Shown here: positions 64 through 32,605 of the stretch, one piece after another | How the letters are laid out: the number at the start of each line of letters is the position of its first letter | How positions within the stretch are numbered: position 1 is the stretch's first letter | Virus record (IMG/VR): IMGVR_UViG_3300046534_000700 | Span: 1 to 34,303 of that record | DNA from: a virus | Length of the DNA: 34,303 nucleotides | Strand: one strand, 5' to 3' | Notes under the pieces: model-generated | Databases searched by the model: none | The model's input: only the letters and a program-made list of their open reading frames with translations | Told to the model about the DNA's origin: nothing | Program-made: the position numbers and the translations under genes

Positions 64-203
64 ATAATCGCAGGAAAGGATATCAGGACCGCATGATTAC
101 CAATTTCACTAAGCGCAACATTATGGAAATTATGACGATATGCGCTTTAGTTATATTAATTTATATGCCTGAGATTGCAGGGCTATTGGAGAGTGTAAAA
201 TGA
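60..203 (+). CDS. small single-pass membrane protein, unknown
   Basis: A 47-residue product starting at the ATG that overlaps the previous stop. The N-terminus is basic (NNRRKGYQDR, TKRN) and is followed by one hydrophobic segment (about residues 22-36, IMEIMTICALVILIYM), so an inner-membrane protein with its N-terminus inside is likely. The C-terminal codons carry the GGAGAG ribosome-binding site of the next gene and the TGA overlaps that gene's ATG. The family is not recognised. Confidence 0.5.
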   Translation: MNNRRKGYQDRMITNFTKRNIMEIMTICALVILIYMPEIAGLLESVK

Positions 204-562
204 GCTATTACTCTGACTTAGATGATGACTTAGGATGTGAACAAGAAGCAAGAGAACATGCGCAGGAATGGGAGTGGGAGCAAAAGCAAAAGTTAGGAAT
301 ATTTAACGCAAAAGTAAAAGTAGAGGTTAAAAAGCAACTTAAAAATACAACGCATAGCTTAATAGAGACCAGCTTAGAAAATCGTTTTCCTTCTCGCGGA
401 ATAACTCAAACAATGAAATGTCATTGCGGCGGCTTGTATGAAGCTAGGAAAGCCGATTTAAAAAGAGGGTGGGCATTGTCTTGCTCTAAGTCTTGCGCAG
501 CAGCTAGGCGTACTTACAGAAAGCCAAAAGCAACTAAGTTTATATTGGAGAGTGTAAAATGA
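184..562 (+). repeat. 20-bp direct repeats around the zinc-finger-like gene
   Basis: TATTGGAGAGTGTAAAATGA at 184-203 and 543-562. Each holds Shine-Dalgarno, start codon and the overlapping stop of the preceding gene. Confidence 0.88.
200..562 (+). CDS. phage zinc-finger-like protein with CxC and SKSCAA motifs
   Basis: A 120-residue product. The N-terminal half is acidic and charged (residues 1-50). The C-terminal part has a cysteine cluster, CHCGG near residue 74 and LSCSKSCAAARR near 93-104, joined by the segment ADLKRGW. This layout (CxCG, about 18 residues with ADLKRGW, then CSKSC) is familiar from small phage proteins and suggests a structural zinc site; the role is unknown. Exact 20-bp direct repeats carrying the Shine-Dalgarno and start (184-203 and 543-562) bracket the gene. 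Confidence 0.7.
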   Translation: MSYYSDLDDDLGCEQEAREHAQEWEWEQKQKLGIFNAKVKVEVKKQLKNTTHSLIETSLENRFPSRGITQTMKCHCGGLYEARKADLKRGWALSCSKSCAAARRTYRKPKATKFILESVK

Positions 563-1005
563 CATTATTTGAAAATCAGTTAAAAACGTTAATCGCTACA
601 CTAGAAGCGGTCAAAGAGCCTAAGTCTTTTGATATGACTGACTGGTATCATGAGCAAGCAAAAATTGTTGTAGATTGCGGGTATGCGGCTTGCATTTGTG
701 GACATCAAGCTGTAGCTGATAAATCAGAGTTTTTTGATGTAAACGTGAGCCTTAATTACCAGCATCAAGCTGGTGAAATATCACACTTTCTTGATGATTC
801 TTGTTGTGACACATTCGGTAATAGCTTCTTAATTGATGCAGTAGTTGCTGGTGAAGAAGAAAACCGTTTTGAAGGGGCAGTAAAATCTGGATTATTTACC
901 AAAACCGAATTAAAGCATTCTCACTTACGAAAAGAAAACCCAACAATTAAACAAGCAATAAGCTTTATTAAATTAGCACTTAAAAAAGTTGAGGCGGTAA
1001 AGTGA
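559..1005 (+). CDS. hypothetical phage protein, 148 aa
   Basis: A soluble acidic product with a Cys/His-containing stretch (CGYAACICGH, residues 39-48) and a later DDSCCD. It begins at the ATG overlapping the previous TGA and is preceded by GGAGAG. The 3' end overlaps the GTG of the next gene. A low-complexity tail (AISFIKLALKKVEAVK) repeats the EAVK wording found near its own N-terminus. The family is not recognised; metal binding is possible but unproven. Confidence 0.65.
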   Translation: MTLFENQLKTLIATLEAVKEPKSFDMTDWYHEQAKIVVDCGYAACICGHQAVADKSEFFDVNVSLNYQHQAGEISHFLDDSCCDTFGNSFLIDAVVAGEEENRFEGAVKSGLFTKTELKHSHLRKENPTIKQAISFIKLALKKVEAVK

Positions 1006-1148
1006 CATTATCATTCACAGACTTTTGCAGTCAAAACGAAATATTGTTTGAAGACTTATGCAGAGAAACCGAACGCTTGTTTGTTGACATTGCAGATGAG
1101 CATTATCAGGAATATTTATGGTCGATAGAGGGTAGGGATAATGACTAA
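1002..1148 (+). CDS. small acidic protein, GTG start, unknown
   Basis: A 48-residue product (VTLSFTDFCSQ... ending IEGRDND) whose GTG overlaps the previous stop in GTGA. The last codons (ATAGAGGGTAGGGATAATGA at 1125-1144) hold the ribosome-binding site of the next gene, and nearly the same 20 bases end the gene at 1582. The function is unknown. Confidence 0.5.
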   Translation: MTLSFTDFCSQNEILFEDLCRETERLFVDIADEHYQEYLWSIEGRDND

Positions 1149-1335
1149 TATAGCTCAAATTTGTAAGCTTAACAACATGACAGAAGCTGAGTTCCTTAAT
1201 CAAATATCGCTAAACTTTCTAGCTTTGATGGATATGCAGTTAGATAAAAATAACAATGAAACTTTAGCAATTACTAGAGGTAATGTATCTCTACTTATAT
1301 TTAGAGCAGATAAAAAGGAACAAGACAATGATTAA
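1141..1335 (+). CDS. hypothetical protein, 64 aa
   Basis: The ATG at 1141 is preceded by GAGGGTAGGG, a very strong Shine-Dalgarno. The product begins MTNIAQICKLNNMTEAEF, which resembles the short helix-turn-helix-like openings of phage proteins, but there is too little to call a DNA-binding domain. It overlaps the next gene by 8 bases. Together with 1328-1582 it is bracketed by 19/20-identical direct repeats. Confidence 0.55.
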   Translation: MTNIAQICKLNNMTEAEFLNQISLNFLALMDMQLDKNNNETLAITRGNVSLLIFRADKKEQDND

Positions 1336-1582
1336 ATTATCAGAAAGAATGCATTTAAGTCGTGCAGACAGGCCAGATGAGTGGTCAATGGATGATTATT
1401 CAAGGGAGGCTAAAAAGCTAGAAGATAAAGTTGCAGAGCTTGAGAAAGGGAAAATTGAGCCGATTAGTCTAAATCAATTTAAATATGCATTTTTTAAAGT
1501 GGAGGCAGGGCAATTAAGCGGGTTTTATAAATGGCTTAAAAAATGGAACCATTTATCAATAGAGGATAGGGATAATGATTGA
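1328..1582 (+). CDS. small phage protein with RPDEWSMDDY motif
   Basis: Start chosen at 1328 (ATG, preceded by AAAGGAACAAGACA) rather than the longer frame at 1283, which would lie inside the previous gene. The 84-residue product has the segment DRPDEWSMDDYSREAKKLED, a pattern seen in many small proteobacterial phage proteins (RPxEWxMD followed by an alpha-helical, Lys/Glu-rich stretch to about residue 45). A second helical half ends LSIEDRDND. No biochemical role is known to me. Confidence 0.65.
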   Translation: MIKLSERMHLSRADRPDEWSMDDYSREAKKLEDKVAELEKGKIEPISLNQFKYAFFKVEAGQLSGFYKWLKKWNHLSIEDRDND

Positions 1583-1742
1583 ATCAACAGTAGAGCAAAC
1601 CATAGCTGCCATACACGCATTAAGAGCAGCAGGCAGTAAAGAGATGCAGTTTAGCGATAGTGACCGTGAGCGAGCTGCTATGAAGCGTAAAATGGATGCG
1701 GGACGGGTTATTGAAGATAGAAGGATTGATGAAGATGAATAA
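1575..1742 (+). CDS. small charged helical protein, unknown
   Basis: A 55-residue product not longer than about 56 codons, beginning MIESTVEQTIAAIHALRAAG and ending in a highly charged helix (RERAAMKRKMDAGRVIEDRR). The ATG follows GAGGATAGGGATA and overlaps the previous stop. Its 3' end overlaps the next gene by 8 bases. The function is unknown. Confidence 0.55.
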   Translation: MIESTVEQTIAAIHALRAAGSKEMQFSDSDRERAAMKRKMDAGRVIEDRRIDEDE

Positions 1743-2019
1743 CGACAAGCAGCACAGAGAAGATACCAAGTATAAGCAGTGGCAAGATGGTATGTATGTA
1801 ATGCTTGATGATTTGGAAGATGATTATGAGAAAGCAATAGTTGAGGATAGTTTGCGGCGTAGTGTTTATTACAAGCGATTGGATTATTTTTTGACTGAAG
1901 GAGATGAGGGATTGTTAGGAGTTAGGCTTAGCGATGCAGGGCTTTGGTTTTCAGTAGGAACTAACAAACTAACCCGCGAACAAGCTTTGTATATTGCTAC
2001 GGGTGATGCTAATATCTAA
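1735..2019 (+). CDS. hypothetical acidic protein, last gene of the left early run
   Basis: A 94-residue product. The ATG at 1735 sits 9 bases after AAGGA; ATG 1729 in the same frame is an alternative. It is acidic (DDLEDDYEKAIVED) and has no motif I recognise. It ends 24 bases before the terminator stem at 2043, so it closes the rightward transcript that enters from outside the window. Confidence 0.6.
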   Translation: MNNDKQHREDTKYKQWQDGMYVMLDDLEDDYEKAIVEDSLRRSVYYKRLDYFLTEGDEGLLGVRLSDAGLWFSVGTNKLTREQALYIATGDANI

Positions 2020-2042
2020 TTTAACACTCTCCCTGTTAAGTC

Positions 2043-2077
2043 AAAACCCTCTAATGCTGCAACGTTAAGAGGGTTTT
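2043..2077. terminator. bidirectional intrinsic terminator between converging transcripts
   Basis: A perfect 10-bp stem, AAAACCCTCT and AGAGGGTTTT, with a 15-base loop, followed on the plus strand by TTTTATTTT and on the minus strand by TTTTG. It lies between the end of the rightward early run (2019) and the end of the leftward late/lysis run (2092), the expected place for a two-way terminator. Confidence 0.85.
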
Positions 2078-2091
2078 ATTTTGTCTTTGAT

Positions 2092-2511
2092 TTACTTGTC
2101 TTTTTTAGTTTCGTTGTGTCTTGTTAGCATGTATGAGCCAAAGAAAAATGTAATTATTGCCGCTGTACCTGCTAGCATTACCGAGGCTGTTGCTAGCTTA
2201 AAGTAAAATTCTGCTAACTCCATATCAAAAGGCGCAGCAATGGCACACATTAAAATAATCCATAGTTGGACTTTAATCCACTGTTTAGCAATTTCACGCC
2301 TTGCTTTTGATCGTTCGCTATTTTCACCCATAGAGGCGATAGCGTAGGAAACCACTCCATTTCTTAAACCCTCCCTAGCCTCTGCTTTTTCTTGGTCGGT
2401 GTGTGACAAATTATCAATCCAGCCACCCACACCCTTTAATAATCCATTGTCTTTATCAAGGACATTATCAATAACTTTATCTGACCAGCTTAAAGGGTTA
2501 TACCATGCCAT
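2092..2511 (-). CDS. holin of the three-TM, gene-transfer-agent type
   Basis: A 139-residue product. The N-terminal soluble half (WYNPLSWSDKVIDNVLD ... DQEKAEAREGL) is typical of the GTA_holin_3TM family (PF11351). Two clear membrane segments follow, about residues 79-96 (VQLWIILMCAIAAPF) and 106-127, and the tail is basic (TRHNETKKDK). Members are thought to form the inner-membrane lesion that releases the endolysin. It directly follows the M15 endopeptidase by one base, which supports a lysis role. It is the last gene of the late transcript. Confidence 0.75.
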   Translation of the reverse strand: MAWYNPLSWSDKVIDNVLDKDNGLLKGVGGWIDNLSHTDQEKAEAREGLRNGVVSYAIASMGENSERSKARREIAKQWIKVQLWIILMCAIAAPFDMELAEFYFKLATASVMLAGTAAIITFFFGSYMLTRHNETKKDK

Positions 2512-2512
2512 G

Positions 2513-2902
2513 TTATCTTACCTCAAAATGTGGCATGTCTTTAAAGTTAGACCAATGACCACCCCATCGCATATTAACGGATAGCCTGTTAGCAGCCTCA
2601 AGCATTGCAGCCGCTATTGTTGTTAGGTGTAATTCATCCCAGCTAGCCTTGCCGTCAACATATGCAAATACATCAAGAGCCATGCCGCTTTGGTGGTAAC
2701 TCTTTTTGACTGTGCCGTCTAACTGGCTTGCCTTATCATTAAAAAGCTTCTGCTGTTCTTCTGCTGTGCGTAAACCTCCATGCTTAGGTATGCCAAAGTC
2801 AATTGGCGACATTGATAGTGCCAGCCTTGCAACTTCTACGACTTGGTAATTAACGCCGATCATTCTATGCTCGCTGTTTTCACCAAACTTAAACTTATTC
2901 AT
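2513..2902 (-). CDS. M15-family peptidase endolysin (L-alanyl-D-glutamate type)
   Basis: A 129-residue single-domain enzyme. The zinc ligands of the family are visible: H70 and D77 in SYHQSGMALD and H125 in PHFE; R45 in GGLRT is the usual conserved arginine. The size and order match T5 Lys and related VanY/M15_4 phage endolysins, which cut the peptide stem of peptidoglycan. There is no signal peptide, so export needs a holin; two holin candidates flank it. Its start overlaps the stop of the upstream holin-like gene by 4 bases. Confidence 0.88.
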   Translation of the reverse strand: MNKFKFGENSEHRMIGVNYQVVEVARLALSMSPIDFGIPKHGGLRTAEEQQKLFNDKASQLDGTVKKSYHQSGMALDVFAYVDGKASWDELHLTTIAAAMLEAANRLSVNMRWGGHWSNFKDMPHFEVR

Positions 2903-3198
2903 TTTTTTGAATCATGCTCTTGTTGTTCACGCTTATCTTTCTTACGTGCAAAGTAAATGTCTACAGCAAGCTTAATAATAAACATTGTTGAGCCAACTAT
3001 AGATAGTATTGCTACTGCGTTTGATACTGTCATCCAGGTAGGGTCCCTGCTTACTATTGCCGTTGAAGTTAACGCGCTAGTCCCGCCTGTCACGACGCTT
3101 GCTATCCCTAACTTGTTTATTATACCGCTTGTCGCTTCGTTCATATGCGGTGTGATTGAGTGTAGGCCGCTGCTTAACTTGCTTAGAATGCTCATCAT
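2899..3198 (-). CDS. class II-like holin
   Basis: A 99-residue product with two hydrophobic segments, about residues 30-50 (LGIASVVTGGTSALTSTAIV) and 58-83 (VSNAVAILSIVGSTMFIIKLAVDIYF), then a short very charged tail (RKKDKREQQEHDSKK). This is the normal form of a two-TM holin directly upstream of an endolysin. ATG 3198 and ATG 3195 are both possible starts. It overlaps the preceding reading frame by 120 bases. Confidence 0.7.
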   Translation of the reverse strand: MMSILSKLSSGLHSITPHMNEATSGIINKLGIASVVTGGTSALTSTAIVSRDPTWMTVSNAVAILSIVGSTMFIIKLAVDIYFARKKDKREQQEHDSKK

Positions 3199-3289
3199 CT
3201 TCTCTGGCTCGTCTTTGTATGTGCTTGAACGTTGAATAAATTAGATAAGCGAGTAAAAACAATATCGCCACTGTTAGCATAGTCTCCAT
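3077..3289 (-). CDS. N-terminally anchored, highly charged small protein; possible inner-membrane spanin
   Basis: A 70-residue product with one N-terminal membrane segment (residues 4-18, MLTVAILFLLAYLIY), then a strongly charged and basic region with no further hydrophobic stretch. A strong Shine-Dalgarno (AGGAGCGGGAG) precedes the ATG, which argues that it is real although it overlaps the gene before by 95 bases and the holin after by 120. Single-TM plus charged periplasmic tail is the plan of an i-spanin, but the tail is short and very Arg/Lys-rich, so this is a guess. Confidence 0.5.
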   Translation of the reverse strand: METMLTVAILFLLAYLIYSTFKHIQRRAREDDEHSKQVKQRPTLNHTAYERSDKRYNKQVRDSKRRDRRD

Positions 3290-3659
3290 TTCTCCCGCTC
3301 CTAATAATGGTAAATAATATGCACAAGTTTACCACAATCATACTGGATGCAAAATAATAAGAATAATTGTCAATATAAAGATTTGACAAAAAATAATTAT
3401 GAGGCAAGAGATCTGATAAGAAGTAAGCGACAGCTAAAAAGTTTACAACCGCAGAGGCAAGCATTACGTATGCTATTTTAGTCGATGAAAATAACGCACA
3501 GCATAAATATATCAGTATAAATAAGACGTGTTGAACGGCTTGGTTAAGAAAAGAAAGTGACACTAGCACAGTTAATAAGAACGCCACGGCCGGCATTCTT
3601 GCAAGTCGTGTGAATCTAACAGCTAGCAGGTAGCCAAGAATTAAAAGTAAGTCGATCAC
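3195..3659 (-). CDS. multi-pass membrane protein in the lysis cluster
   Basis: A 154-residue product that is hydrophobic nearly throughout, with about four to five membrane segments (residues 1-15, 24-40, 45-58, 63-82, 101-117). The start is GTG, overlapping the previous TGA in GTGA. No family is recognised. Holin, anti-holin or superinfection-exclusion functions are all possible from its position among lysis and envelope genes. Confidence 0.6.
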   Translation of the reverse strand: MIDLLLILGYLLAVRFTRLARMPAVAFLLTVLVSLSFLNQAVQHVLFILIYLCCALFSSTKIAYVMLASAVVNFLAVAYFLSDLLPHNYFLSNLYIDNYSYYFASSMIVVNLCILFTIIRSGRNGDYANSGDIVFTRLSNLFNVQAHTKTSQRR

Positions 3660-3757: not shown

Positions 3758-3772
3758 TTTATTTAATCCTCT

Positions 3773-8375: not shown

Positions 8376-10778
8376 TTAACCAAAGAACCCGCTTAAACCG
8401 CCCATTGCAGAGCTAACGCCCCCCGCTGGCGCACCGTACGCACCAGCCACCGCGCCAGCAACTTGCCCAACTCCAGAGCGAATGCCAGCGGCTCTGCCTG
8501 TTATGCCGCCAGCCTGTGCGCTACCAATTCCCATCTGAGCGGCGCTTGCTTGACTGCCCTGCCCCACTGCTAAGTTAGACAGCATTCTAGCAAGCTCTTG
8601 CTGTTGTGATGCATTCATTTGCCCATAATTTGCAATTAAATTCTGTATGTTTGTTCCGCCCTGAGCAAGTATACTTTCAAGCCCTGCGCCTTGGTCTGAT
8701 TGGAAGCCAGCTAAGTTTTGAGACCCTGAAGCTAATGAATTTGCTAAGTCTCTGCCAGCTTGATTCCTAGCGCCGCCTAACGCTTGACCTGTGTTTTGAT
8801 ACATATTAGCTGCTTGCTGGCCTGCGTTACTCATCATTTGAGCGCCTTGGCCTGCCAGTTGCCCAGCAAAGTTAGCTTGATTCATTCCTGCATTTGATTG
8901 AATGCCTGCACTTTGGCCTGCTAATTGACTTAATATATTTGCTTGATTTGTGCCAGCTTGACTTTGCATTCCCGCCTGTTGTGTGCCTAATTGACTTAAT
9001 AAATCCGCTTGTTGTGCGCCTGTCTGTTGTGCCATTCCTGCACCTTGACCGCCAAGTTGAGCGAGTATGTTAGCCTGATTTGTACCAGCTTGGTTTTGCA
9101 TCTGAGCGCCTTGTCCCGATGCTTGATTTATGAAGTTAGCCTGATTTGTGCCTGCCTGCGATTGAATACCTGCGCCTTGCCCTGCTGCTTGTCCAATCAT
9201 GTTGGCTTGTGATAACCCGCCTTGCTGCGCTATGCCTGCGCCTCTATTTGCCGCGTCTTGCAATGCGTTAGCTTGAGCCATTCCAGTTTGTTGGTTAAAC
9301 CCTGCGCCCTGACTAAATAAATTAGATAGGTTATTCGCGCTTTGCCCAAACAATCCGGCCTGCTGGCTTGCAGCGTTGAGCCTGTTGCTTGCGTTAGCCA
9401 TGTTGGTTTGATTTTGCATTTGGGCGTTTTGCCCTGCAAGCTGCCCTTGTTGTTGTCCTGCCTGAGCTAAGAACTGACCCTGCTGACCTGCTGCTTGTAA
9501 GCCTTGCCCTGTGCTTTGAAAGGCTCTGTTAAATTGGTTTTGCAAGTCTTGTGAAGCAATTCCCGCGCTTCTGTCTTGAAGCTCTCTAAGAATATTGCCA
9601 CTTACTATATTGCCTGTCGCTGAACCTTGATTAGTAACGTTGCGATTCATCTCATCTTGCAAATATTGGGTGCCTGGGTTATTCATTAACGCATTATTAA
9701 ACGCCTCTTGCCCTTGCTGACCTGATAAAGCTAACTGTTGTTGCTGAGACTGCAAGCCACCATTAGCGAAAGCGCCAACGCCTTCAGCAGCTTGATTGAA
9801 TTGGCTTTGCCCTGTGTTTTGGTCTACGCTGCCAGCTCTTGAACTAAAGTTACCTCCTAAAGCGTTTACTCCTTGGTTAAACAGGTTTGATGATGCATTC
9901 ATCCCTTGCTGCAACTGGCCTTGTGCTAATTGATTGCCACCGCCAATCCTACTTTGAGCAAGGTTAGCGCCTGCACCGAGCATATTTAAACTTTGGTTTG
10001 TGCCCTGGTTTATTGCGGACGTGCCTAGGTTAACGCCTTGCTGTAAGCTGCTTAGGCCTTGATTAGCGCCTTGATTTATGGCCTGGCCGCCTTGATTAAC
10101 GCCTCTTTGTAAACTGTTAATTCCACCGCCTACACCTTGATTTATTGCCTGTCCTGATTGCTGACCAGCCTGATTCAGCATATTAGCGCCCTGATTAAAT
10201 CCTTGATTTAGTTGGTTTTGCCCCTGCTGCCCTGCTTGGCGTAATGTGTTGACACCTTGATTAGTGCCTTGGCTTATTGCGCCTACACTTTGCTGCCCGC
10301 CTTGTTGCAACGCTCCCATAGCATTCTGAGCGCCTTGACCGATTTGGTTTAACCCAAAGTTGCCCGCACCCTCTAAAAGATTTAAGCCTTGTTGATTAGC
10401 GCCCTGCAAAGCACCAAGACCGCCTTGCAACCCTCCACCATAAGCGGCTTCTGCACCAGCTAAACCGTAGTTTTGTGAGCCGCCGACCTGTGCCGGTTGC
10501 TGTGTTGTTTGCTGCATTTGTGGCGGCGGCTGCATTTGTGGCGATGGGCTGCCTTGGGGTTGTTGCATTTGTGGGCTAACCTGCTGAAAGCTGGGGTTAT
10601 CCCTTGGAATAGGGGCATCACGCGGAATAGGCGCGTTATTTACAGGCGGTCCGGCTAATGCTTGCTGAGACAGGTTATTAACCCCCATAGCTTGTTGAGC
10701 GCCTTGTGACATTTGATTTGGTTGGCGCATCATGTTGTTAGGCTGTAAACGCCTTAGCGCACTTGCTCTAGCTACCAT
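8376..10778 (-). CDS. Gln/Gly/Ala-rich ejection protein with 11-residue (hendecad) repeats; gp20 position
   Basis: An 800-residue product. Residues 1-100 are Pro/Gln-rich. From about 115 to 305 the chain is an almost uninterrupted series of 11-residue units (for example QGANQGLSSLQ, QGVNLGTSAIN, QGTNQSLNMLG). A second run, about 490-664, has 22-residue double units (GQGAGIQSQAG then TNQANFINQAS). The last 60 residues are Gly/Ala-rich and hydrophobic. Hendecads favour long amphipathic helices or right-handed coiled coils, which fits a channel- or tunnel-forming ejectosome subunit. The location equals P22 gene 20; the length (P22 gp20 is about 470) is nearly double. Confidence 0.65.
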   Translation of the reverse strand: MVARASALRRLQPNNMMRQPNQMSQGAQQAMGVNNLSQQALAGPPVNNAPIPRDAPIPRDNPSFQQVSPQMQQPQGSPSPQMQPPPQMQQTTQQPAQVGGSQNYGLAGAEAAYGGGLQGGLGALQGANQQGLNLLEGAGNFGLNQIGQGAQNAMGALQQGGQQSVGAISQGTNQGVNTLRQAGQQGQNQLNQGFNQGANMLNQAGQQSGQAINQGVGGGINSLQRGVNQGGQAINQGANQGLSSLQQGVNLGTSAINQGTNQSLNMLGAGANLAQSRIGGGNQLAQGQLQQGMNASSNLFNQGVNALGGNFSSRAGSVDQNTGQSQFNQAAEGVGAFANGGLQSQQQQLALSGQQGQEAFNNALMNNPGTQYLQDEMNRNVTNQGSATGNIVSGNILRELQDRSAGIASQDLQNQFNRAFQSTGQGLQAAGQQGQFLAQAGQQQGQLAGQNAQMQNQTNMANASNRLNAASQQAGLFGQSANNLSNLFSQGAGFNQQTGMAQANALQDAANRGAGIAQQGGLSQANMIGQAAGQGAGIQSQAGTNQANFINQASGQGAQMQNQAGTNQANILAQLGGQGAGMAQQTGAQQADLLSQLGTQQAGMQSQAGTNQANILSQLAGQSAGIQSNAGMNQANFAGQLAGQGAQMMSNAGQQAANMYQNTGQALGGARNQAGRDLANSLASGSQNLAGFQSDQGAGLESILAQGGTNIQNLIANYGQMNASQQQELARMLSNLAVGQGSQASAAQMGIGSAQAGGITGRAAGIRSGVGQVAGAVAGAYGAPAGGVSSAMGGLSGFFG

Positions 10779-15662: not shown

Positions 15663-15691
15663 AAATACCTCAAGGTAATAATTATTGCTCT

Positions 15692-15738
15692 ATTATAAAG
15701 CGTTTGCTATGGTGTATGTAGATAGGCGTATTGCCTAT
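15692..15738 (-). promoter_or_regulatory. candidate minus-strand promoter for the tail/lysis unit, with upstream dyad
   Basis: On the minus strand TATAAT occupies 15697-15692, about 30 bases before the start of the 52-aa gene. TAGCAAA lies 6 bases above it and CTACA 19 bases above it, directly joined to the dyad ATAGGC-GTATT-GCCTAT at 15722-15738. The same parts at the same spacing occur at 18519-18565. The -35 match to TTGACA is poor, so an activator or a phage-specific sigma partner would be needed. Confidence 0.55.
15722..15738. promoter_or_regulatory. dyad element copy 1
   Basis: ATAGGC-GTATT-GCCTAT, a perfect 6-bp inverted repeat with 5-base spacer, between divergent genes. On the plus strand it precedes the Shine-Dalgarno AAGGGG and ATG 15755. 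It could be an operator at DNA level or a leader hairpin at RNA level. Confidence 0.7.
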
Positions 15739-15754
15739 GGTTAAGGGGTGATTT

Positions 15755-15925
15755 ATGTTAATTGAAATGAATGGCAGATATATATATACATGCACAATAT
15801 TAAACCGATGGCTTTACGTAGCAAAGAATGACGGTTCGCCTCTATTGTTTAGCGAGCGAAATGGGCATACCAAAGTGTGGTTTATTTTTGGGTTAAAGTT
15901 AAAATATAAAAAGCTTAAAGGGTGA
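15755..15925 (+). CDS. island 1 gene a: small basic protein, unknown
   Basis: A 56-residue product, MLIEMNGRYIYTCTILN ... VWFIFGLKLKYKKLKG. A strong AAGGGG precedes the start. Its last codons supply the AAAGGG of the next gene. Aromatic-rich and basic; it could be a small beta-fold. It is transcribed against the surrounding late genes. Confidence 0.55.
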   Translation: MLIEMNGRYIYTCTILNRWLYVAKNDGSPLLFSERNGHTKVWFIFGLKLKYKKLKG

Positions 15926-15928
15926 TTT

Positions 15929-16108
15929 ATGAAACCACACATTAAGGTAATACAGCGTAATGGTGTTGATATCTTTGTAACGTCTAGTATGACTATGAAG
16001 GAAACTAAGGGTCATCTTTTTCGCAATAGAGGTATGAGCAATGCATACTTTGATGCTGAAGGTTATTGTGGAAGTATATTAGGCGTATTGCCTATGGGTA
16101 AGGGGTAA
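15929..16108 (+). CDS. island 1 gene b: first copy of a tandemly duplicated gene
   Basis: A 59-residue product. Residues 1-27 (MKPHIKVIQRNGVDIFVTSS then MTMKETK) are identical to the next gene; residues 28-59 differ. The last residues, LGVLPMGKG, are simply the translation of the dyad and Shine-Dalgarno of the following copy, so the 3' end was replaced or cut when the duplicate arose. The function is unknown. Confidence 0.55.
   Translation: MKPHIKVIQRNGVDIFVTSSMTMKETKGHLFRNRGMSNAYFDAEGYCGSILGVLPMGKG
16080..16094. promoter_or_regulatory. dyad element copy 2
   Basis: TAGGC-GTATT-GCCTA, 5-bp arms, the same 5-base centre as copy 1, followed by GGGTAAGGGGTAATTTATG. It lies inside the 3' end of gene b, and lacks the conserved promoter part found beside copies 1 and 3. 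Confidence 0.6.
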
Positions 16109-16111
16109 TTT

Positions 16112-16300
16112 ATGAAACCACACATAAAAGTAATACAGCGCAATGGTGTTGATATCTTTGTAACGTCTAGTATGACTATGAAGGAAACTAAGTCAGGTTT
16201 GGGATTAAAAACGGGTAGGTATTGGGCGAAAGTTAACAGCTTTATTAATCAAGGCGGGTCAATAAAGTTTGCTGGCGGCATAGGTATAGTATTGGAATAG
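16112..16300 (+). CDS. island 1 gene c: second copy of the duplicated gene
   Basis: A 62-residue product whose first 27 residues equal those of gene b; about 81 bp of the two genes are nearly identical, with only a few synonymous differences. The rest (GRYWAKVNSFINQGGSIKFAGGIGIVLE) is a natural-looking beta-rich ending, so this is probably the intact form. AAGGGG precedes the ATG and the terminator at 16318 follows. Confidence 0.6.
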   Translation: MKPHIKVIQRNGVDIFVTSSMTMKETKSGLGLKTGRYWAKVNSFINQGGSIKFAGGIGIVLE

Positions 16301-18454: not shown

Positions 18455-18518
18455 CTCATGGCCCTTAAAGGTATAGGCTCTCGCCAGCCGCGATAATGTC
18501 GCGTACATTGTTTGACTT

Positions 18519-18565
18519 ATTATAATATATTTGCTAAGTTCACTGTAGATAGGCAATATGCCTAT
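18519..18565 (-). promoter_or_regulatory. candidate minus-strand promoter for scaffold and coat, with upstream dyad
   Basis: Minus-strand TATAAT lies at 18524-18519, 65 bases before the scaffold ATG. TAGCAAA lies above it and CTACA 19 bases above it, joined to the dyad at 18549-18565. Parts and spacing equal those at 15692-15738. The ATTATAAT core is itself symmetrical, so a plus-strand -10 (TATAAT 18521-18526) coincides with it. Confidence 0.55.
18549..18565. promoter_or_regulatory. dyad element copy 3
   Basis: ATAGGC-AATAT-GCCTAT. The arms equal copy 1 while the 5-base centre differs, which is what selection on the arms would give. TGTAG lies just before it and TTAAGGGTTGATTTATG just after it, almost as at copy 1. 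Confidence 0.7.
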
Positions 18566-18582
18566 GTTTTAAGGGTTGATTT

Positions 18583-18756
18583 ATGAAATGTGAATTTACA
18601 ACACTAATACACGCTAAAGGCTGGACTGTGTGGGATGCCTGCAAGCATTGGGGCATTAGATATGACGTCTGGCGTAGAACATGCCGCAACATTAACGATA
18701 AACACCGTCAACAGCTTGTGTGTAGGTGTAATGGATTGGAGAGTAAATTATGTTAG
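18583..18756 (+). CDS. island 2 gene a: small Cys/Trp-rich protein, possible HTH
   Basis: A 57-residue product, MKCEFTTLIHAKGWTVWDACKH then WGIRYDVWRRTCRNINDKHRQQL. The pattern 'LIxAKGWTxxDxxxxWGIxxxxWxR' is like short phage proteins with a helix-turn-helix, so DNA binding is plausible. AAGGG precedes the ATG. It overlaps the following membrane-protein gene by 7 bases. Confidence 0.55.
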   Translation: MKCEFTTLIHAKGWTVWDACKHWGIRYDVWRRTCRNINDKHRQQLVCRCNGLESKLC

Positions 18757-18971
18757 AAGTTATTGTGTTTTTAGTTTGGGTTTCATTTACGGTATTGTTA
18801 ACTATCGCTCCTGTACCGATGCTTCCTTTATTTGCATTAAGAGGGGGAGCTAAAAAAACTGACATAGCTATTATTTGGATATTTATTTGCTTGGTTGTAA
18901 TTAGCTGGTATTTCATATTCACATCAACAATTAATCTTAATTAACATGAATGGATTGGAGAGTAAATTATG
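18730..18971 (+). repeat. 23-bp direct repeats around a membrane-protein gene
   Basis: 18730-18752 and 18949-18971 are identical, starting AATGGATTGGAGAG and ending AAATTATG. Each contains a ribosome-binding site and the start codon of the gene that follows. Confidence 0.88.
18750..18944 (+). CDS. island 2 gene b: two-TM membrane protein
   Basis: A 64-residue product with hydrophobic segments at about residues 2-20 and 40-59, joined by a short basic loop (RGGAKKTD). Exact 23-bp direct repeats at 18730-18752 and 18949-18971, each with GGAGAG and a start codon, bracket the gene. The function is unknown; superinfection exclusion is possible for a phage membrane protein of this type. Confidence 0.55.
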   Translation: MLEVIVFLVWVSFTVLLTIAPVPMLPLFALRGGAKKTDIAIIWIFICLVVISWYFIFTSTINLN

Positions 18972-19145
18972 AAATTGATTGAGTTTATTATTGTGGACAG
19001 TCTGGGCAATGAACACAAAATTCTTGCTCACGAAAATAGAATTGACAATGGTTATGTTGTAATTTGGCATGATGATTTTGAGCATGAAGTTATATTTTAT
19101 AAGCCTGTGTCGGTAACTTTCTCTAATGTGGATGATAAATTATGA
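18969..19145 (+). CDS. island 2 gene c: hypothetical protein, 58 aa
   Basis: MKLIEFIIVDSLGNEHKILA ... ending FSNVDDKL, a soluble acidic beta-type sequence. The start is given by the second 23-bp repeat (GGAGAGTAAATTATG). The stop overlaps the next ATG. Not recognised. Confidence 0.5.
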   Translation: MKLIEFIIVDSLGNEHKILAHENRIDNGYVVIWHDDFEHEVIFYKPVSVTFSNVDDKL

Positions 19146-28404: not shown

Positions 28405-28437
28405 ATTATTGCCTTGGCTTTTAACTTTAGTGGGGTT

Positions 28438-28466: not shown

Positions 28467-28508
28467 CACTAATTAGCAATTATATTCAAATTAATTATTA
28501 CTTACTGC

Positions 28509-28730
28509 TTACTCATAAATCTCTACACTTTTGCACCAGCTAGCACCGTCCAAATAAAGCCTAGTCATAAAGTAACGGTTTTTCTTTTTGTTAATAATAA
28601 TTTCTTCCCCATCACCATTATCAATAACCTCTTTAACTTTAATAGATTTGTAACTATCTCTTGAGTTTTTACCAGTTATTTTTAATATGTTGCCTACTTT
28701 AATCTGCCCTTCCGCACTTAATTTAATCAT
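28509..28730 (-). CDS. small phage protein (EEIIINKKKNRYFMT..LDGASWCKSV type)
   Basis: A 73-residue product with an SH3-like beta pattern (GQIKVGNILKITGKNS ... SIKVKEVIDNG) followed by EEIIINKKKNRYFMTRLYLDGASWCKSVEI. The C-terminal half is a wording I know from many phage early regions as a hypothetical protein. It is last before the promoter at 28438. Confidence 0.6.
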   Translation of the reverse strand: MIKLSAEGQIKVGNILKITGKNSRDSYKSIKVKEVIDNGDGEEIIINKKKNRYFMTRLYLDGASWCKSVEIYE

Positions 28731-28789
28731 TATTTCTTTATCTCCAGGTTGTCTAGCGTTGCTAATATTGTTGTCATGCCGCCCTTCAT
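28730..28789 (-). CDS. possible 19-residue peptide
   Basis: Frame MKGGMTTILATLDNLEIKK with GGAGG 10 bases before the ATG. The start codon overlaps the previous stop (TAATG) and the stop touches the next ATG. It may only serve to couple translation across the junction. Confidence 0.35.
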   Translation of the reverse strand: MKGGMTTILATLDNLEIKK

Positions 28790-29139
28790 TATTTATTCAC
28801 CTCCACTAAGTATATGCAGGCAGCCTCTAATATAGAGCAATTGTATTTTTCTATTATTATGCTCCATCTTGATTGATACCATTCACAGCTATTTTTGTCA
28901 GTGCAAAATACAGGCTCTATTAAATCATCAAAGCAAATATTAATAATGCTATTTGTGTCTGCTGGGTTTTCGCAGTAGTTTTTTAATAATTCAGATTTAC
29001 CATTATAATTATCACTATAAACCCAAGAATCACAATCATTCATCTGATCACCTGGCGGCAAATACCACGATGACACGCCAAGCAATTCAGCGCATCTTTT
29101 ATTAATAATAAAGCTTGTAAAACCTTTTGTATCAATCAT
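28789..29139 (-). CDS. NinX-like (DUF2591) protein, copy 2
   Basis: A 116-residue paralogue of 26473-26832: 'FIINKRCAELLGVSSW', 'LKNYCENPADTNSIIN' and the final helix 'NCSILEAACIYLVEVNK' align to the same places. The middle part is different. Exact 16-bp repeats bearing the ribosome-binding site and start (28787-28802 and 29137-29152) bracket it. The family is PF10765-type; the role is unknown. Confidence 0.72.
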   Translation of the reverse strand: MIDTKGFTSFIINKRCAELLGVSSWYLPPGDQMNDCDSWVYSDNYNGKSELLKNYCENPADTNSIINICFDDLIEPVFCTDKNSCEWYQSRWSIIIEKYNCSILEAACIYLVEVNK

Positions 29140-29351
29140 TATTTATTCACCTTACTAATAAAGCTCATCATTACGTTATATGATGTTTTGTTGTCATCAG
29201 GGTTTAACCCTATTTCTCTGCATGCATCTCTAGCAGTTCCCATTCCAGTTCCAAATAATTCCATATATAGGCGTCCATTACTTGTAATTGATTTTGCTTT
29301 TATTAATCGTCTTGCATTTGACAATACGATTGCAGTGCGTTCTAAATCCAT
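29139..29351 (-). CDS. short form of the SNARRLIKA domain protein
   Basis: A 70-residue product equal to the C-terminal domain of 26829-27221: 'LSNARRLIKAKSITSNGRLY', 'MELFGTGMGTARDACREIGL', 'NPDDNKTSY'. It is followed by the NinX-like copy 2, so the gene pair order is the same as in the other copy. One of the two pairs has lost or gained the N-terminal 65 residues. Confidence 0.68.
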   Translation of the reverse strand: MDLERTAIVLSNARRLIKAKSITSNGRLYMELFGTGMGTARDACREIGLNPDDNKTSYNVMMSFISKVNK

Positions 29352-29569
29352 TATTTCTCTACCTTTTTATCTAAAAACAAATTATTGTATGCCTCTGTAA
29401 AAGTATTATGGCTATTTAATGGGTGATCATCTTCCCACTCTACTTCTGCCGTCTTAAAGCTTATAACTTCGGCATTTATGTATTTAGATGACTCAATTAT
29501 ACGGGTAACTTCATCATCTCCTAAGTTTTCAAAATCCATTACAAATAATTCAATCTTGTATGCTTTCAT
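29351..29569 (-). CDS. hypothetical early protein, 72 aa
   Basis: A product with a ferredoxin-like start (MKAYKIELFVMDFENLGDDE) and 'SSKYINAEVISFKTAEVEWEDDHPLN', read by eye as a beta-alpha-beta unit seen in other small phage proteins. It is bracketed by exact 18-bp repeats containing the start region (29349-29366 and 29567-29584). Not recognised. Confidence 0.6.
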   Translation of the reverse strand: MKAYKIELFVMDFENLGDDEVTRIIESSKYINAEVISFKTAEVEWEDDHPLNSHNTFTEAYNNLFLDKKVEK

Positions 29570-29922
29570 TATTTCTCTACCTTTAGGTTTTCTGCGTTAG
29601 TTATGATTGTTTTAAAATAGCTGCCAGTTACAGGGTGGTATTTGTCCATTAGTCTTTGTGTGTTGTCGCACCAGCTCAAGCCGCCTTTATCTTCAAGTAG
29701 TGGCTGCTTAACTTCTGGCATAAAGCTGCGTAGCTCTGGTATGTCTGGAAACCATTTATACTTTTCATCATCAATGTGATTGTTAACGCCGTTGTAAAAG
29801 TCAATGTAGCTAAGATGAATAAACCTTCTGTGGTAAAGCTGTGACAAAACAGGGTCAAACTTTTTGTTTGGGTAATATGAAAAAAGCATAGCCATACATT
29901 CATTAAATTCACCGTCTGTCAT
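29569..29922 (-). CDS. possible helicase loader (lambda P / G39P-like position)
   Basis: A 117-residue product, MTDGEFNECMAMLFSYYPNK ... LYHRRFIHLSYIDFYNGVNN ... WFPDIPELRSFM. The pattern 'F...m...YP......v...Y...l..i.......a......ikFFPtipel' is like the N-terminal part of lambda P/G39P-type replicative helicase loaders. It overlaps the end of the initiator gene by 14 bases, the same order as O-P in lambda. It is shorter than P (233) and no helicase gene is in the window, so host DnaB is a possible partner. Moderate confidence. Confidence 0.5.
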   Translation of the reverse strand: MTDGEFNECMAMLFSYYPNKKFDPVLSQLYHRRFIHLSYIDFYNGVNNHIDDEKYKWFPDIPELRSFMPEVKQPLLEDKGGLSWCDNTQRLMDKYHPVTGSYFKTIITNAENLKVEK

Positions 29923-30583
29923 AATTTATCTCCGAAAGCTGATTAAATATCTCTTGAGTCTTACCAATCTCAACTCTTGGTGCTTTGTTCTGCGACTTAG
30001 ACAACCACGCATTTATAAATTTAGGCATGCCTCCAATCGTTTTTCGGTTTTTTTGATTTGCATTTAACCAAGATGCGATTTCTTTAAATTGTTGCTCAAT
30101 ATTTACAGCTTGGTATGTGGATTTGTAATAGTCAATTTCTTGTGTTGTAACCAAATAAAAAGAATCAGTTTTGTTTGTAAGAAGTTTAAAAACATATTCT
30201 TCCACGATAGTGGGTAAGTCTTTTATCTTTTTACTAACATTATCATTATCACTATCATTAACATTATCATTCTTACTAACATTATCATTCTCTGCTAACT
30301 TTGCTACCTTTTGCTTGGGTTTGCTAGCATTTGCTACCTTTTGCTTGCCACCCATAGAACCCGCATTAGCTCTACGTTCACAGGTAGTTTGGTATTTTAA
30401 TGTGTCTCTATTGAATTGGTTTTTAAATGGGGAAAACACTATTTTTGTTAGTGCATCAAGCTGCATTTCTTCATCGTTATGATAGTCGCGCATAGCTTTT
30501 AATAGCATTCCAGCTTGCTCATTATTCAGTTCATCGAGAACATCTAACGAATCAATGTGGAGCAAAAAGGATCTTCTTGTCAT
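29909..30583 (-). CDS. lambda O-like replication initiator (DUF6291-type)
   Basis: A 224-residue product. The N-terminal 85 residues (RRSFLLHIDSLDVLDELNNE, QAGMLLKAMRDYHND, IVFSPFKNQFNRDTLKYQ, CERRANAGSMGGK) have the DUF6291 pattern found in phage initiators. Then follow a low-complexity linker (SKNDNVNDSDNDNVSKK) and a C-terminal helical domain (residues 135-205, ending GGMPKFINAWLSKS). DNA repeats in the part coding for the linker look like iterons, as in the origin within lambda O. GAGGGG precedes the start. Confidence 0.65.
   Translation of the reverse strand: MTRRSFLLHIDSLDVLDELNNEQAGMLLKAMRDYHNDEEMQLDALTKIVFSPFKNQFNRDTLKYQTTCERRANAGSMGGKQKVANASKPKQKVAKLAENDNVSKNDNVNDSDNDNVSKKIKDLPTIVEEYVFKLLTNKTDSFYLVTTQEIDYYKSTYQAVNIEQQFKEIASWLNANQKNRKTIGGMPKFINAWLSKSQNKAPRVEIGKTQEIFNQLSEINYDRR
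30231..30347. other. candidate replication origin: iterons inside the initiator gene
   Basis: Three copies of TAACATTATCATT stand at 30235-30247, 30259-30271 and 30277-30289, and two copies of TTGCTACCTTTTGCTTG at 30301-30317 and 30331-30347, 30 bases apart. They lie in the linker part of the O-like gene, as iterons do in lambdoid phages, in AT-rich DNA. Simple low-complexity coding is the alternative for the first set. Confidence 0.45.
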
Positions 30584-30586
30584 AAA

Positions 30587-31177
30587 TTACCCCTCTATTA
30601 CATAGTTTAATAGAGCGGTTCTAAGTGGCTCAGATTGTTGATTGGCTACTTCTGCTATGTATTTGTACTTGAATGCTTTGTAAGCTTCGTGTGCTTCTTT
30701 TGGCGTGTCGTAACAGCCTATAGTTTTCTTTTTACCGTAGGCCATGCAGTCAGCACGATATTTCCCCTTTTTCTTATTAAAGCAAACTCCCCTAGGAAAT
30801 TTACCCCTGACAGATGTGCAGTTGTTTAAAAAACTATTAATATCAGCATTAACAAAAATGCAAGTTAATGGGCTGTACACTTTGTTGTGTTGTATTAAAA
30901 TATCTTTATCAAGGCTTTTACCATGCCAATCCTGTTTATCCATCCATGAACTAAATTTACTAAAACTAAACCATTCACTAGCAACAGTACAGCCTATGTA
31001 TGTTGGCCATATTTTATGATGAGTTTCGCTATAGCACCTAGTTAACATGCTTGTCCAAGTTTTATAAAAAGGACATATTACACGTTTTCCATTAATTACA
31101 GATGAAGTAGCACATGCAACGTCATTTATTCCAACGCCACAAATTAGTTTTGTTCTTTTATAAATTCCACTTGGCAT
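30587..31177 (-). CDS. HNH/AP2-type homing endonuclease-like protein
   Basis: A 196-residue product. The N-terminal part has 'TWTSMLTRCYSETHHKIWPT', 'GCTVASEWFSFSKFSSWMD', then 'LDKDILIQHNKVYSPLTCIF', the pattern of phage HNH-type DNA endonucleases. The C-terminal 60 residues (FPRGVCFNKKKGKYRADCMA ... GCYDTPKEAHEAYKAFKY) are an AP2 DNA-binding domain. AGGAGG precedes the ATG by nine bases. Such genes are mobile and usually cut an intronless or empty site. It stands between the initiator and small early genes with a structured leader. Confidence 0.8.
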   Translation of the reverse strand: MPSGIYKRTKLICGVGINDVACATSSVINGKRVICPFYKTWTSMLTRCYSETHHKIWPTYIGCTVASEWFSFSKFSSWMDKQDWHGKSLDKDILIQHNKVYSPLTCIFVNADINSFLNNCTSVRGKFPRGVCFNKKKGKYRADCMAYGKKKTIGCYDTPKEAHEAYKAFKYKYIAEVANQQSEPLRTALLNYVIEG

Positions 31178-31191
31178 TTTATATTCCTCCT

Positions 31192-31268
31192 AATGTAAAT
31201 TAAACCTCTGTAAATATCTCTGATAAAGACTGCCCAGCTTATTATCAGTAAGCTGGGCTATTTACATT
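31192..31268 (-). ncRNA. candidate structured leader (pseudoknot) before the HNH/AP2 gene
   Basis: On the minus strand: TGTAAATA (31266-31259), 10-bp stem GCCCAGCTTA / TAAGCTGGGC (31258-31249 with 31241-31232), whose 7-base loop CTGATAA (31248-31242) is fully complementary to TTATCAG (31226-31220), and then TATTTACA (31216-31209) to close the outer stem. The AATGTAAAT arm can instead pair with ATTTACATT (31200-31192), which touches the Shine-Dalgarno AGGAGG. Upstream ACGGG/CCCGT (31280-31296) adds another small stem. The 127-base gap 31178-31304 holds no gene. Confidence 0.6.
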
Positions 31269-31304
31269 GGTGCTTGCAGACGGGGAGTCTACCCGTGTAT
31301 TTTA

Positions 31305-31532
31305 CTATAGTTTTTGTTTGATATCATTATTAATAGCTTTTTTATTATTAACTGTAAACTTATGAGATGTATCACCATTAAGTCGACCCCTCTGATAAGA
31401 TATGCGGTAGCCTTTTGGTGATTGTATTATGTCGCATTGGTTGGTCATAAAGCTGTTAATTAAATCAGAGCAAAGCTGTAATGCATCTGCGTCATCTAAA
31501 TTTGATTCGTTGTCTATTGTTATTCTGTTCAT
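31305..31532 (-). CDS. hypothetical early protein, 75 aa
   Basis: ATG 31532 has AAAGG 8 bases upstream; GTG 31541 in frame overlaps the previous gene and is less likely. The product (MNRITIDNESNLDDADALQL, then CSDLINSFM) has a beta segment followed by basic residues (KGYRISYQRGRLNGDTSHKF). Phage proteins beginning 'ITIxNExxlxDxdAL..V..VI' are familiar and always unassigned. Confidence 0.55.
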   Translation of the reverse strand: MNRITIDNESNLDDADALQLCSDLINSFMTNQCDIIQSPKGYRISYQRGRLNGDTSHKFTVNNKKAINNDIKQKL

Positions 31533-31533
31533 T

Positions 31534-31722
31534 CTATTCACCTTTGCTGTTAAATTCTTTAATTGAACGCCTACCCTCTGCGTCTAATGATGTGTTGTGA
31601 TACGCGCCACATGTAGGGCATAAGTACGACCTTTGTCTATACTGTAACCCTCGCTTTCGTAGGAACTTCTTAGCGCCTTTCCTGTTGCAAAATCCCACTT
31701 TCTTGCAAATTGTAAATACCAT
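31534..31722 (-). CDS. small zinc-ribbon-like protein
   Basis: A 62-residue basic product: 'GFCNRKGAKKFLRKRGLQYR', then 'LCPTCGAYHNTS'. CxxC followed by xYH is the pattern of small phage zinc-binding proteins ('CPxCGxWHLTS'). The start at 31722 is preceded by GGAGTGGATGGAATGA. The role is unknown, nucleic-acid binding possible. Confidence 0.65.
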   Translation of the reverse strand: MVFTICKKVGFCNRKGAKKFLRKRGLQYRQRSYLCPTCGAYHNTSLDAEGRRSIKEFNSKGE

Positions 31723-31757
31723 TTCATTCCATCCACTCCGACAATTAATAAAATAAT

Positions 31758-31859
31758 TTATTCTTCATGCTGCCACCCGCCTAAAATCCAACATAATAAA
31801 GACACTGCTGCAATAGCTATTACCCCAAACACTACACATAAAATTATTAAAATTTCCAT
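31758..31859 (-). CDS. 33-residue membrane peptide
   Basis: MEILIILCVVFGVIAIAAVS then LLCWILGGWQHEE: one membrane helix with a short polar tail. GGAGTGG precedes the ATG. Exact 15-bp repeats (31725-31739, 31857-31871) with ribosome-binding sites bracket it. It overlaps the previous gene by 13 bases in another frame. Confidence 0.45.
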   Translation of the reverse strand: MEILIILCVVFGVIAIAAVSLLCWILGGWQHEE

Positions 31860-32047
31860 TCCATCCACTCCACTATGATTAATGATTTAGTTTGTCTTAT
31901 GCGAGTATAGCCAGATTGATTCCTGTGGTGCATGTAGCTTCTATTTGGTGCTGAACCTATGCGTTCACCTACGTCTTTGCGATAGCTCTTAACATCTTCC
32001 TCTACAATGGGGTTATAGCAGTCTGCTCTGTATTGTTCTGGCTTCAT
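31847..32047 (-). CDS. hypothetical early protein, 66 aa
   Basis: A soluble basic product, MKPEQYRADCYNPIVEEDVKS ... (split) ERIGSAPNRSYMHHRNQSGY, ending IIVEWMEWKF. It starts at an ATGA overlap with the gene before. Its last codons form the ribosome-binding site for the membrane peptide that follows. Not recognised. Confidence 0.5.
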   Translation of the reverse strand: MKPEQYRADCYNPIVEEDVKSYRKDVGERIGSAPNRSYMHHRNQSGYTRIRQTKSLIIVEWMEWKF

Positions 32048-32193
32048 TTCTCTAGCGCTCCAATAATAAATGATGCTGCAACAAATACACTTGCTATTAT
32101 AAAATATTTATCACCACCAACTGTTTCACTTAGAATATATGCCAAAGATGCAAATACCATTGTTGTTATCCAATATCCTGTTGACTTTCTCAT
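32044..32193 (-). CDS. 49-residue two-helix membrane protein
   Basis: MRKSTGYWITTMVFASLAYI ... YFIIASVFVAASFIIGALEK, with two hydrophobic segments (about 7-22 and 30-46). Start and stop both overlap the neighbours by ATGA, so it sits in the operon. Family unknown. Confidence 0.5.
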   Translation of the reverse strand: MRKSTGYWITTMVFASLAYILSETVGGDKYFIIASVFVAASFIIGALEK

Positions 32194-32354
32194 GTCTTAG
32201 GCTCCTTTAGTGCTTCATTGAGCTCGTCCACTAAGACTCTAACAGAGTGATTACCCAGCGCCGTCATATTCCAAGCAATTGATTTAGCTAAAACATTTTT
32301 TAATACTAAAACCTGCTTCTCTAAAGCCTCTATTCTTTGCTGGTCATCCATCAT
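32190..32354 (-). CDS. 54-residue coiled-coil-like protein
   Basis: MMDDQQRIEALEKQVLVLKN then VLAKSIAWNMTALG ... ELNEALKEPKT. Heptad-like leucines and valines in residues 8-25 suggest a short coiled coil. Exact 17-bp repeats (32202-32218, 32360-32376) bracket it; both encode the 'EALKE' ending and the AAGGAG ribosome-binding site. ATG 32354 or 32351 is the start. Confidence 0.5.
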   Translation of the reverse strand: MMDDQQRIEALEKQVLVLKNVLAKSIAWNMTALGNHSVRVLVDELNEALKEPKT

Positions 32355-32605
32355 TTACTCTCCTTTAGTGCTTCATAAGCTTCATCTATCCAGCTCTCTG
32401 GAAAAGACTCCCAGCTATCTACTTGTTGCGCTCTGTCGATAAGCTTATTCAGTGCCTTCTCTAGCTCAACAATGCGCTTAATGTCTGCTAGTGAGCGAAT
32501 GATTGGCTGTCTATGGCTCCACTTGCCATTACTATCGACTTGATTGCAGTCTGGCCATTTACCTTGTTTTGGTGGTTCGCTATCTATAATCTCTTGGTTA
32601 TTCAT
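32351..32605 (-). CDS. hypothetical early protein, 84 aa
   Basis: A soluble product. 'QPIIRSLADIKRIVELEKAL' then 'NKLIDRAQQVDSWESFPESW' and the ending 'IDEAYEALKESK' are the recurring style of early phage proteins that carry an 'ELExAL' helix. Its 3' end supplies the ribosome-binding site CTAAAGGAGAG for the next gene. No role is assigned. Confidence 0.55.
   Translation of the reverse strand: MNNQEIIDSEPPKQGKWPDCNQVDSNGKWSHRQPIIRSLADIKRIVELEKALNKLIDRAQQVDSWESFPESWIDEAYEALKESK

Follow-up and report, generated by a model that had tools for sequence, protein, structure and literature searches.

Short repeats ending at successive start codons as probable joints for cassette exchange of small genes in a P22-like, marine-type phage

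How phages gain and lose single small accessory genes without wrecking the operons that hold them is an old question, and a 34.3-kb stretch of viral DNA (IMG/VR virus record IMGVR_UViG_3300046534_000700, positions 1 to 34,303; the whole stretch is called the window hereafter) bears directly on it. The window encodes a P22-type podovirus in which small genes are bracketed by short direct repeats, and a first-pass annotation had proposed that these repeats, each holding a ribosome-binding site (RBS) and a start codon, allow accessory genes to be exchanged as cassettes. Comparison of the repeats, which we term junction words, with their counterparts in related phages suggests that they probably act as homology joints for the gain, loss and exchange of such cassettes.

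All seven repeat pairs of the first-pass annotation are present at the coordinates and with the identities it gave. On the plus strand, word A (TATTGGAGAGTGTAAAATGA; 20 of 20 positions identical) lies at 184-203, where it covers the end of gene 60-203, a Shine-Dalgarno (SD) stretch and the start of gene 200-562, and again at 543-562, at the start of gene 559-1005; the bracketed gene encodes 120 amino acids (aa), matches a PHROG of unknown function and ends in ...LESVK*. Word B (TCGATAGAGGGTAGGGATAATGA; 1125-1144/1559-1578, 19 of 20) can be extended to 21 of 23 positions (1122-1144/1556-1578) and does enclose two genes, 1141-1335 and 1328-1582; the neighbouring open reading frames (ORFs) end in ...DND*. 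Word C (AATGGATTGGAGAGTAAATTATG; 23 of 23) occurs at 18730-18752 and at 18949-18971, the latter at the start of gene 18969-19145, and brackets a hydrophobic 64-aa protein (18750-18944). The remaining four pairs lie on the minus strand. Word D (AGGTGAATAAATAATG; 16 of 16) has its downstream copy at 28787-28802, at the start of a 19-aa ORF (28730-28789), and its upstream copy at 29137-29152, with a 116-aa gene between them (28789-29139, ending ...VEVNK*). Word E (AAAGGTAGAGAAATAATG; 18 of 18) lies at 29349-29366 and, within the 3' tail of gene 29569-29922 (...NLKVEK*), at 29567-29584, and brackets a 72-aa gene (29351-29569, ending ...KVEK*). The gene within the word F pair (GGAGTGGATGGAATG; 31725-31739/31857-31871, 15 of 15) is a 33-aa ORF with one hydrophobic segment (31758-31859, MEILIILCVVFGVIAIAAVSLLCWILGGWQHEE), which falls below the 40-aa cut-off and was therefore missed. 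The last pair, word G (including GAAGCACTAAAGGAG; 32202-32218/32360-32376, 17 of 17), encloses a 54-aa gene (32190-32354, ending ...EALKEPKT*), and its upstream copy forms the 3' end of gene 32351-32605 (...EALKESK*). The claim that the repeats hold both RBS and start codon stands for six pairs, each with an SD-like stretch and a start codon, and fails for word G, which comprises the SD and the final codons of the upstream gene and stops a few nucleotides (nt) before the ATG. The words overlap the closing codons of the gene before them, which gives unrelated proteins a common ending (KVEK, KEQVK, ESVK, DND). A further bracket that had not been reported lies in a plus-strand gene island, island 1 (15723-15757/16080-16114, 94% over 35 nt); it consists of a palindrome (TAGGCGTATTGCCTA), an SD and an ATG, encloses genes 15755-15925 and 15929-16108, and its first copy belongs to a leader held in common with island 2.

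If the words are joints, relatives should differ in what the words enclose. IMG/VR searches with portal, HNH, endolysin and replication genes retrieved twelve related contigs, G001 to G012. G002 and G003 are nearly one phage, G004, G005 and G010 overlap at 99.8-99.96% identity, and G008 overlaps G009; as separate witnesses we counted the window, G003, G004, G005 (only where different), G006, G008 and G012. The relatives do not always hold the same genes between both repeats: alleles with a single word copy, or with another gene enclosed by the same words, were recovered for words C, D, E and F and less clearly for G, hence for five of the window's seven sites, as well as for three further words found in relatives (R, S and T), a pattern that favours the proposed cassette exchange.

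Empty and filled forms can be compared at site F. In the window two word copies and the 33-aa gene lie between two flanking genes; G004 has the same flanking genes with one word between them and lacks the 33-aa gene. The unaltered window matches G004 in two overlapping alignments (204 and 119 nt), and when its two word copies are joined in silico a single gap-free alignment of 297 nt results, at 76% identity. At word R (CGGGAGATAAATAAGATG), G003 reads word, gene, word, gene, family 36, and G004 reads word, family 36; joining G003 at the start codons that follow the word gives a gap-free alignment of 127 nt to G004. Word T (AAGGTAGGTATAAAACA) occurs once in the window, in G003 and in G004, and G005 has two copies of it with a 46-aa gene in between. 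Joining two copies would thus remove a gene and keep the translation signal, as had been suggested, although the recombination is something we infer from the comparison.

Other sites show replacement of the enclosed genes. Homology between the window and its relatives at site C ends at the first word copy, which the relatives hold as a single, slightly diverged copy, and beyond it G004/G005/G010 and G008/G009 carry other genes. The G004 gene at this place resembles window gene 32351-32605, which is located in another block, so that members of one cassette family seem to have been transferred from block to block. Past the replication gene ending in ...NLKVEK*, the window holds families 209, 125 and 11, the 19-aa ORF and family 207; at the same place G003 holds families 65, 64 and 63, G004 families 96 to 100, and G012 an HNH gene (family 217) and families 218 to 220, and in these three relatives the array ends with the conserved families 14 and 5. 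None of the array families recurs among these four phages at this site, although genes related to families 11 and 125 lie at other places in the genomes. Many borders of these arrays nevertheless carry words E and D or near-D forms: word E encloses unrelated genes in all four phages (in the relatives as G002/G003, G004/G005 and G012), and word D is identical in G004 and has one mismatch in G012. Word S (AAGGAGCAAGTCAAGTG) is present in four copies around three genes in G003 and in three copies around two genes in G004. The first-pass annotation attributed the repeats to local copying, and the word does differ from array to array. Local copying is not the whole account, since D and E resemble one another at 15 of 18 positions and are conserved in relatives at corresponding places, and the words are therefore better described as old, inherited joints.

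The words are far in excess of chance. The window holds 13 exact direct repeats that are 15 bp or longer and spaced 60-700 bp apart, some of which are coding repeats and not junction repeats, compared with a mean of 0.05 (maximum 1) in 20 third-order Markov sequences. The first-pass annotation had asked for a shuffling of junctions, and adjacent junctions indeed proved more alike than order-permuted ones: with a hand-curated gene list, which was completed when the repeats were already known, four pairs of neighbouring junctions have 12 nt or more in common, ending at the start codon, against a mean of 0.45 after permutation, and none of 2000 permutations reached four. Blind gene calls at a 10-nt threshold gave three adjacent pairs in the window (reached by 21 of 2000 permutations), six in G003 (0 of 2000), three in G004 (21 of 2000) and two in G012 (33 of 2000). 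The likeness is also sharply bounded. It extends 8-20 nt upstream of the start codon and ends 0-2 nt past it in 15 of 16 informative pairs, with the T pair out of register by one base. Of the 532 ends of homology segments between relatives, 21% are 6 nt or less from a start codon, compared with 3.3% when shifted at random (0 of 300 shifts reaching the observed value), so that start codons coincide with homology breakpoints six-fold above expectation. One such breakpoint is at site F, from whose start codon G004 and G005 are 99.96% identical over 13 kb and beyond which they diverge and share few bases.

Exact words are also nearly confined to this phage family. Among 2.9 million IMG/VR contigs, exact word E was found in five family contigs, always at gene starts and in two to three copies each, and outside the family in two unrelated coding matches; exact word S was found in four family contigs and one other. 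A bracket was defined as an exact repeat, 14 bp or longer, that spans the start codons of two ORFs in succession. Early regions of the family contain 13 brackets in about 44 kb, compared with 6 in 629 kb of 63 non-redundant loci from other phages whose replication gene is of the same type, a density about 30-fold higher (Poisson, ~1e-15). Nine reference phages yielded one bracket in 354 kb, namely P22 eaF, and thirty other loci yielded four in 255 kb, including two copies of one locus; no bracket was found in lambda, HK620, APSE-1 or five marine phages. Two loci, L122 (1787-2078) and L171 (2241-2514), carry repeats of 37 and 48 bp that end one base past two successive start codons. The similar brackets in L122, L171 and L172 suggest that this route is general yet usually rare.

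These results are best explained by a model in which the words are inherited joints of accessory-gene arrays in this phage family. A word comprises the final four to six codons of one gene with the RBS inside them and usually the next start codon, and a cassette would be the small gene between two copies, from start codon to start codon. Recombination between two copies in one genome would remove the cassette and leave one intact joint, and recombination with a relative whose copies of the same words enclose a different gene, or integration of a word-cassette circle where a word stands alone, would replace or add one. In every case the SD and start codon would stay intact and translational coupling would be retained. 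Exchange would probably proceed through the phage's own short-homology recombination (a YqaJ-type exonuclease, NinB/Orf and the Ref-like nuclease) or through template switching during replication. As for the first appearance of a second word copy, an HNH gene in G012 ends in a near-copy of the family-126 tail, suggesting that an insertion may duplicate the tail of the gene before it; true tandem duplications occur as well.

Candidate enzymes are encoded in the window and in a relative. The block at 26.4-34.3 kb on the minus strand is nin-like, with a gene of the RecA-dependent nuclease family (PF16786, Ref-like; 32602-32904, minus strand; Pfam 39 bits against a cut-off of 26.9) adjoining one for a NinB/Orf-type recombination mediator (32904-33428, minus strand, start likely at 33395; PHROG 7283, E 2.6e-21). 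A YqaJ-type exonuclease is present among the family contigs in G002/G003 only, and the AlphaFold model of an adjoining 177-aa protein, a possible annealing partner, was unusable (mean predicted local distance difference test score 34). In the cultured relative vB_PspP-H6/1, a Pseudoalteromonas phage, the annotation includes NinB, a protein of Rad52 type and the same nuclease family. Short and diverged homology is used with relatively greater efficiency by Rad52-like phage recombinases, and deletion of orf cuts Red-mediated exchange about ten-fold (PMC3945230); RecET joins stretches of 5-13 bp at low frequency (PMC2327257).

Several points weigh against the joint model. The recombination event itself was not observed, the words, at 15-23 bp, offer little length for RecA to exchange efficiently, and no annealing protein of the Rad52 or RecT families was found in the relatives' contigs, which are fragments. 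The homology ends come from related contigs and are thus non-independent, and the bracket criteria were fixed after the window examples were known. Site G fits in part: the upstream gene of G003 ends in ALKEPKT, which in the window is the end of the bracketed gene, so that the EPKT end sits directly on the upstream family's gene as would be expected of a single-copy form; the downstream gene of G003 differs, however, and joining gives no longer alignment. Sites A and B lack comparable relatives in the collections searched, at site A because an IMG/VR search with gene 559-1005 found no relative. Lastly, the arrays are unchanged in the near-identical contig pairs G002/G003 and G004/G005 (13 kb), which implies a low rate; a fast phase-variation switch was rejected on the same grounds.

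Among other explanations, a whole gene might be duplicated in tandem along with its translation signal, one copy later diverging or being replaced; no exchange between phages would then be needed. True tandem paralogues do exist here: genes 15929-16108 and 16112-16300 are alike over their first 27 codons and then differ, two adjacent family-116 genes in G006 are bracketed by a 27-bp word, and genes 33395-33706 and 34020-34259 share 46 identical bases. We nevertheless consider this explanation unlikely. The bracketed gene is mostly unrelated to its neighbours (single-member families), identity ends at the start codon and not within the gene, and duplication leaves different genes between the same words in different phages unexplained, a weakness already evident from the unrelated genes between identical words in four phages.

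Alternatively, HNH endonucleases of the arrays may cut near junctions and break repair may copy the junction tail, in which case the brackets would be footprints of insertion and co-conversion. In G012 an HNH gene follows family 126, and some 44 nt at its own 3' end are nearly identical to the family-126 tail of the window, word E included. The window itself has an AP2/HNH endonuclease gene (30587-31177, minus strand; PHROG 953, E 1.1e-79), and a homologue in L014 (20-620) and L015 (4991-5591) is bracketed by a 20-bp SD-start repeat (TGGAGTGTGAATTCAAATGA). These G012 and L014/L015 genes are, however, the only endonucleases found inside an inserted segment; most window brackets have no endonuclease gene inside or adjoining them, and none was found among the scanned bracketed genes of the window. 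Homing as the origin of the brackets seems quite improbable.

Selection for a good coupled start signal in tightly overlapping genes could also yield look-alike junctions by convergence, given that stop-start overlaps (ATGA, TAATG) oblige the SD to sit within the final codons of the gene before. Such convergence would not explain why the likeness is among neighbours and not across all junctions, why it includes bases beyond the SD and third codon positions, why the exact words are nearly private to the family, or why compact lambda and HK620, as well as APSE-1 and the five marine phages, lack brackets, and we regard it as very unlikely. Least probable of all, with hardly any weight in our assessment, is that a regulator of translation or transcription binds at the words, which would then be comparable to the start-associated sequences (SAS) of cluster K mycobacteriophages: the words do lie at gene starts, and E and S occur in several copies, but each array has its own word in two to four copies, 14 word copies have no hairpin or shared secondary structure (z -1.5 to 1.5), and no promoter or hairpin composite forms part of the words. 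Rfam and tRNA scans found nothing. An assembly artefact is not obvious, as the repeats appear too short and too unlike one another, and assembly chimerism was rejected given that the words are shorter than usual assembly k-mers and that the same arrays turn up in contigs from different samples.

The joint model has clear precedents. The boundary-sequence (linker) model, put forward for lambdoid mosaicism (Susskind and Botstein 1978 and, for HK620, Clark et al. 2001, both cited in PMC3233612), proposes short conserved border sequences between genes as points of homologous recombination. Words C, D, E, R, S and T are likewise conserved at borders and flank non-homologous genes, homology between relatives breaks at their borders, and the window, like lambdoid phages, has NinB/Orf in a nin-like block. 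The window differs in carrying the boundary sequence on both sides of a cassette within one genome, and single genes can therefore be lost or stacked, with up to four word copies. In the promoter-early stem-loop (PeSL) cassettes of T4-type phages (Arbiol 2010 and Comeau 2014, cited in PMC4503421), repeated expression signals also lie between optional small genes and gene shuffling has been proposed. Those signals combine a promoter with a stem-loop, whereas the signal in the window is translational and lies inside overlapping genes; we found no promoter excess in the islands and no unusual fold at the 14 word copies. Cluster K mycobacteriophages have SAS as repeated motifs upstream of small-gene starts before different gene families, but as one 13-bp consensus (GGGATAGGAGCCC) spread over the genome before many starts (PMC3203893). 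The words of the window differ between arrays, and the SAS consensus has no match in the window with up to two mismatches. The bracket at P22 eaF in the ea region (BK000583, 25481-25506/25837-25862) is similar in being a 26-bp exact repeat over two successive early accessory gene starts, although its identity runs five codons into coding sequence and that of the window repeats ends sharply at the start codon.

We thus have a strong variant of the long-proposed boundary-sequence model and not a new kind of system; what sets it apart from the known systems is the combination of array-specific translational words flanking single genes with empty and filled alleles in relatives. A bolder possibility, which we advance tentatively, is that the one word of each array is a standing docking site for an open-ended stack of cassettes. 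Genes might then be added, lost and swapped singly by short-homology recombination with expression kept, and the arrangement could perhaps be seen as a translational counterpart of a gene-cassette platform that works without a site-specific recombinase. The boundary-sequence model has so far had limited support, with many mosaics showing no border signal; here the borders are visible as exact repeats, and words as well as empty and filled sites can be compared across relatives, which makes the model directly testable. A repeat ending at two successive start codons also provides a search signature for phage genes that can be exchanged; in other phages, anti-defence functions are often among such genes.

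The phage of the window is a marine-type, P22-like phage. Its portal, terminase, scaffold, major head and head-closure proteins match PHROGs, and no sequenced phage matched its first 20 kb at the DNA level (megablast). The closest cultured portal protein is that of vB_PspP-H6/1 (43%), followed by those of Vibrio phages, and the replication protein of G003 has its nearest counterparts in Shewanella and Vibrio phages; such protein relatives make Alteromonadales or Vibrionales the likely host group. A search with the portal proteins in 84,980 bacterial and archaeal genomes found no prophage. Compared with G001 (L064/L065), the lysis genes of the window are 96% identical and part of the tail region 90%, and the intervening 19 kb has no DNA similarity, the whole head module having been exchanged. 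The large gene 8376-10778, encoding a DNA ejection-like protein, contains many short degenerate repeats.

Islands 1 and 2 consist of plus-strand genes between minus-strand head genes. Their leaders (15691-15757 and 18518-18585) are alike, each with a plausible sigma-70 promoter, a palindrome TAGGC-N5-GCCTA, an SD and an ATG, and the leader is also present in G004/G010; it looks like a shared promoter-operator of moron-like islands. In phage H6/1 (L103, 4789-5478), small genes on the opposite strand likewise form an island in this position, flanked by the portal and scaffold genes.

There are also signs of exchange within genes. At 15929-16192 two adjacent genes begin with the same 27 codons (MKPHIKVIQRNGVDIFVTSSMTMKETK), and G004 has the same start with a third ending, suggesting an N-terminal module with exchangeable C-termini. 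A 37-nt stretch at 32470-32506 coding for RSLADIKRIVELE is common to otherwise different proteins of the window, G003, G004 and G005, in both the early block and island 2, and may be an internal exchange point. An exact 46-nt coding repeat (33540-33585/34177-34222), absent from the first-pass annotation, lies in two paralogous genes that flank gene 33703-34017, and G004 has one copy. Finally, the end of the 19-aa ORF at 28730-28789 resembles the tail of gene 29569-29922 (72% over 46 nt), and this ORF is probably the remnant of an earlier cassette.

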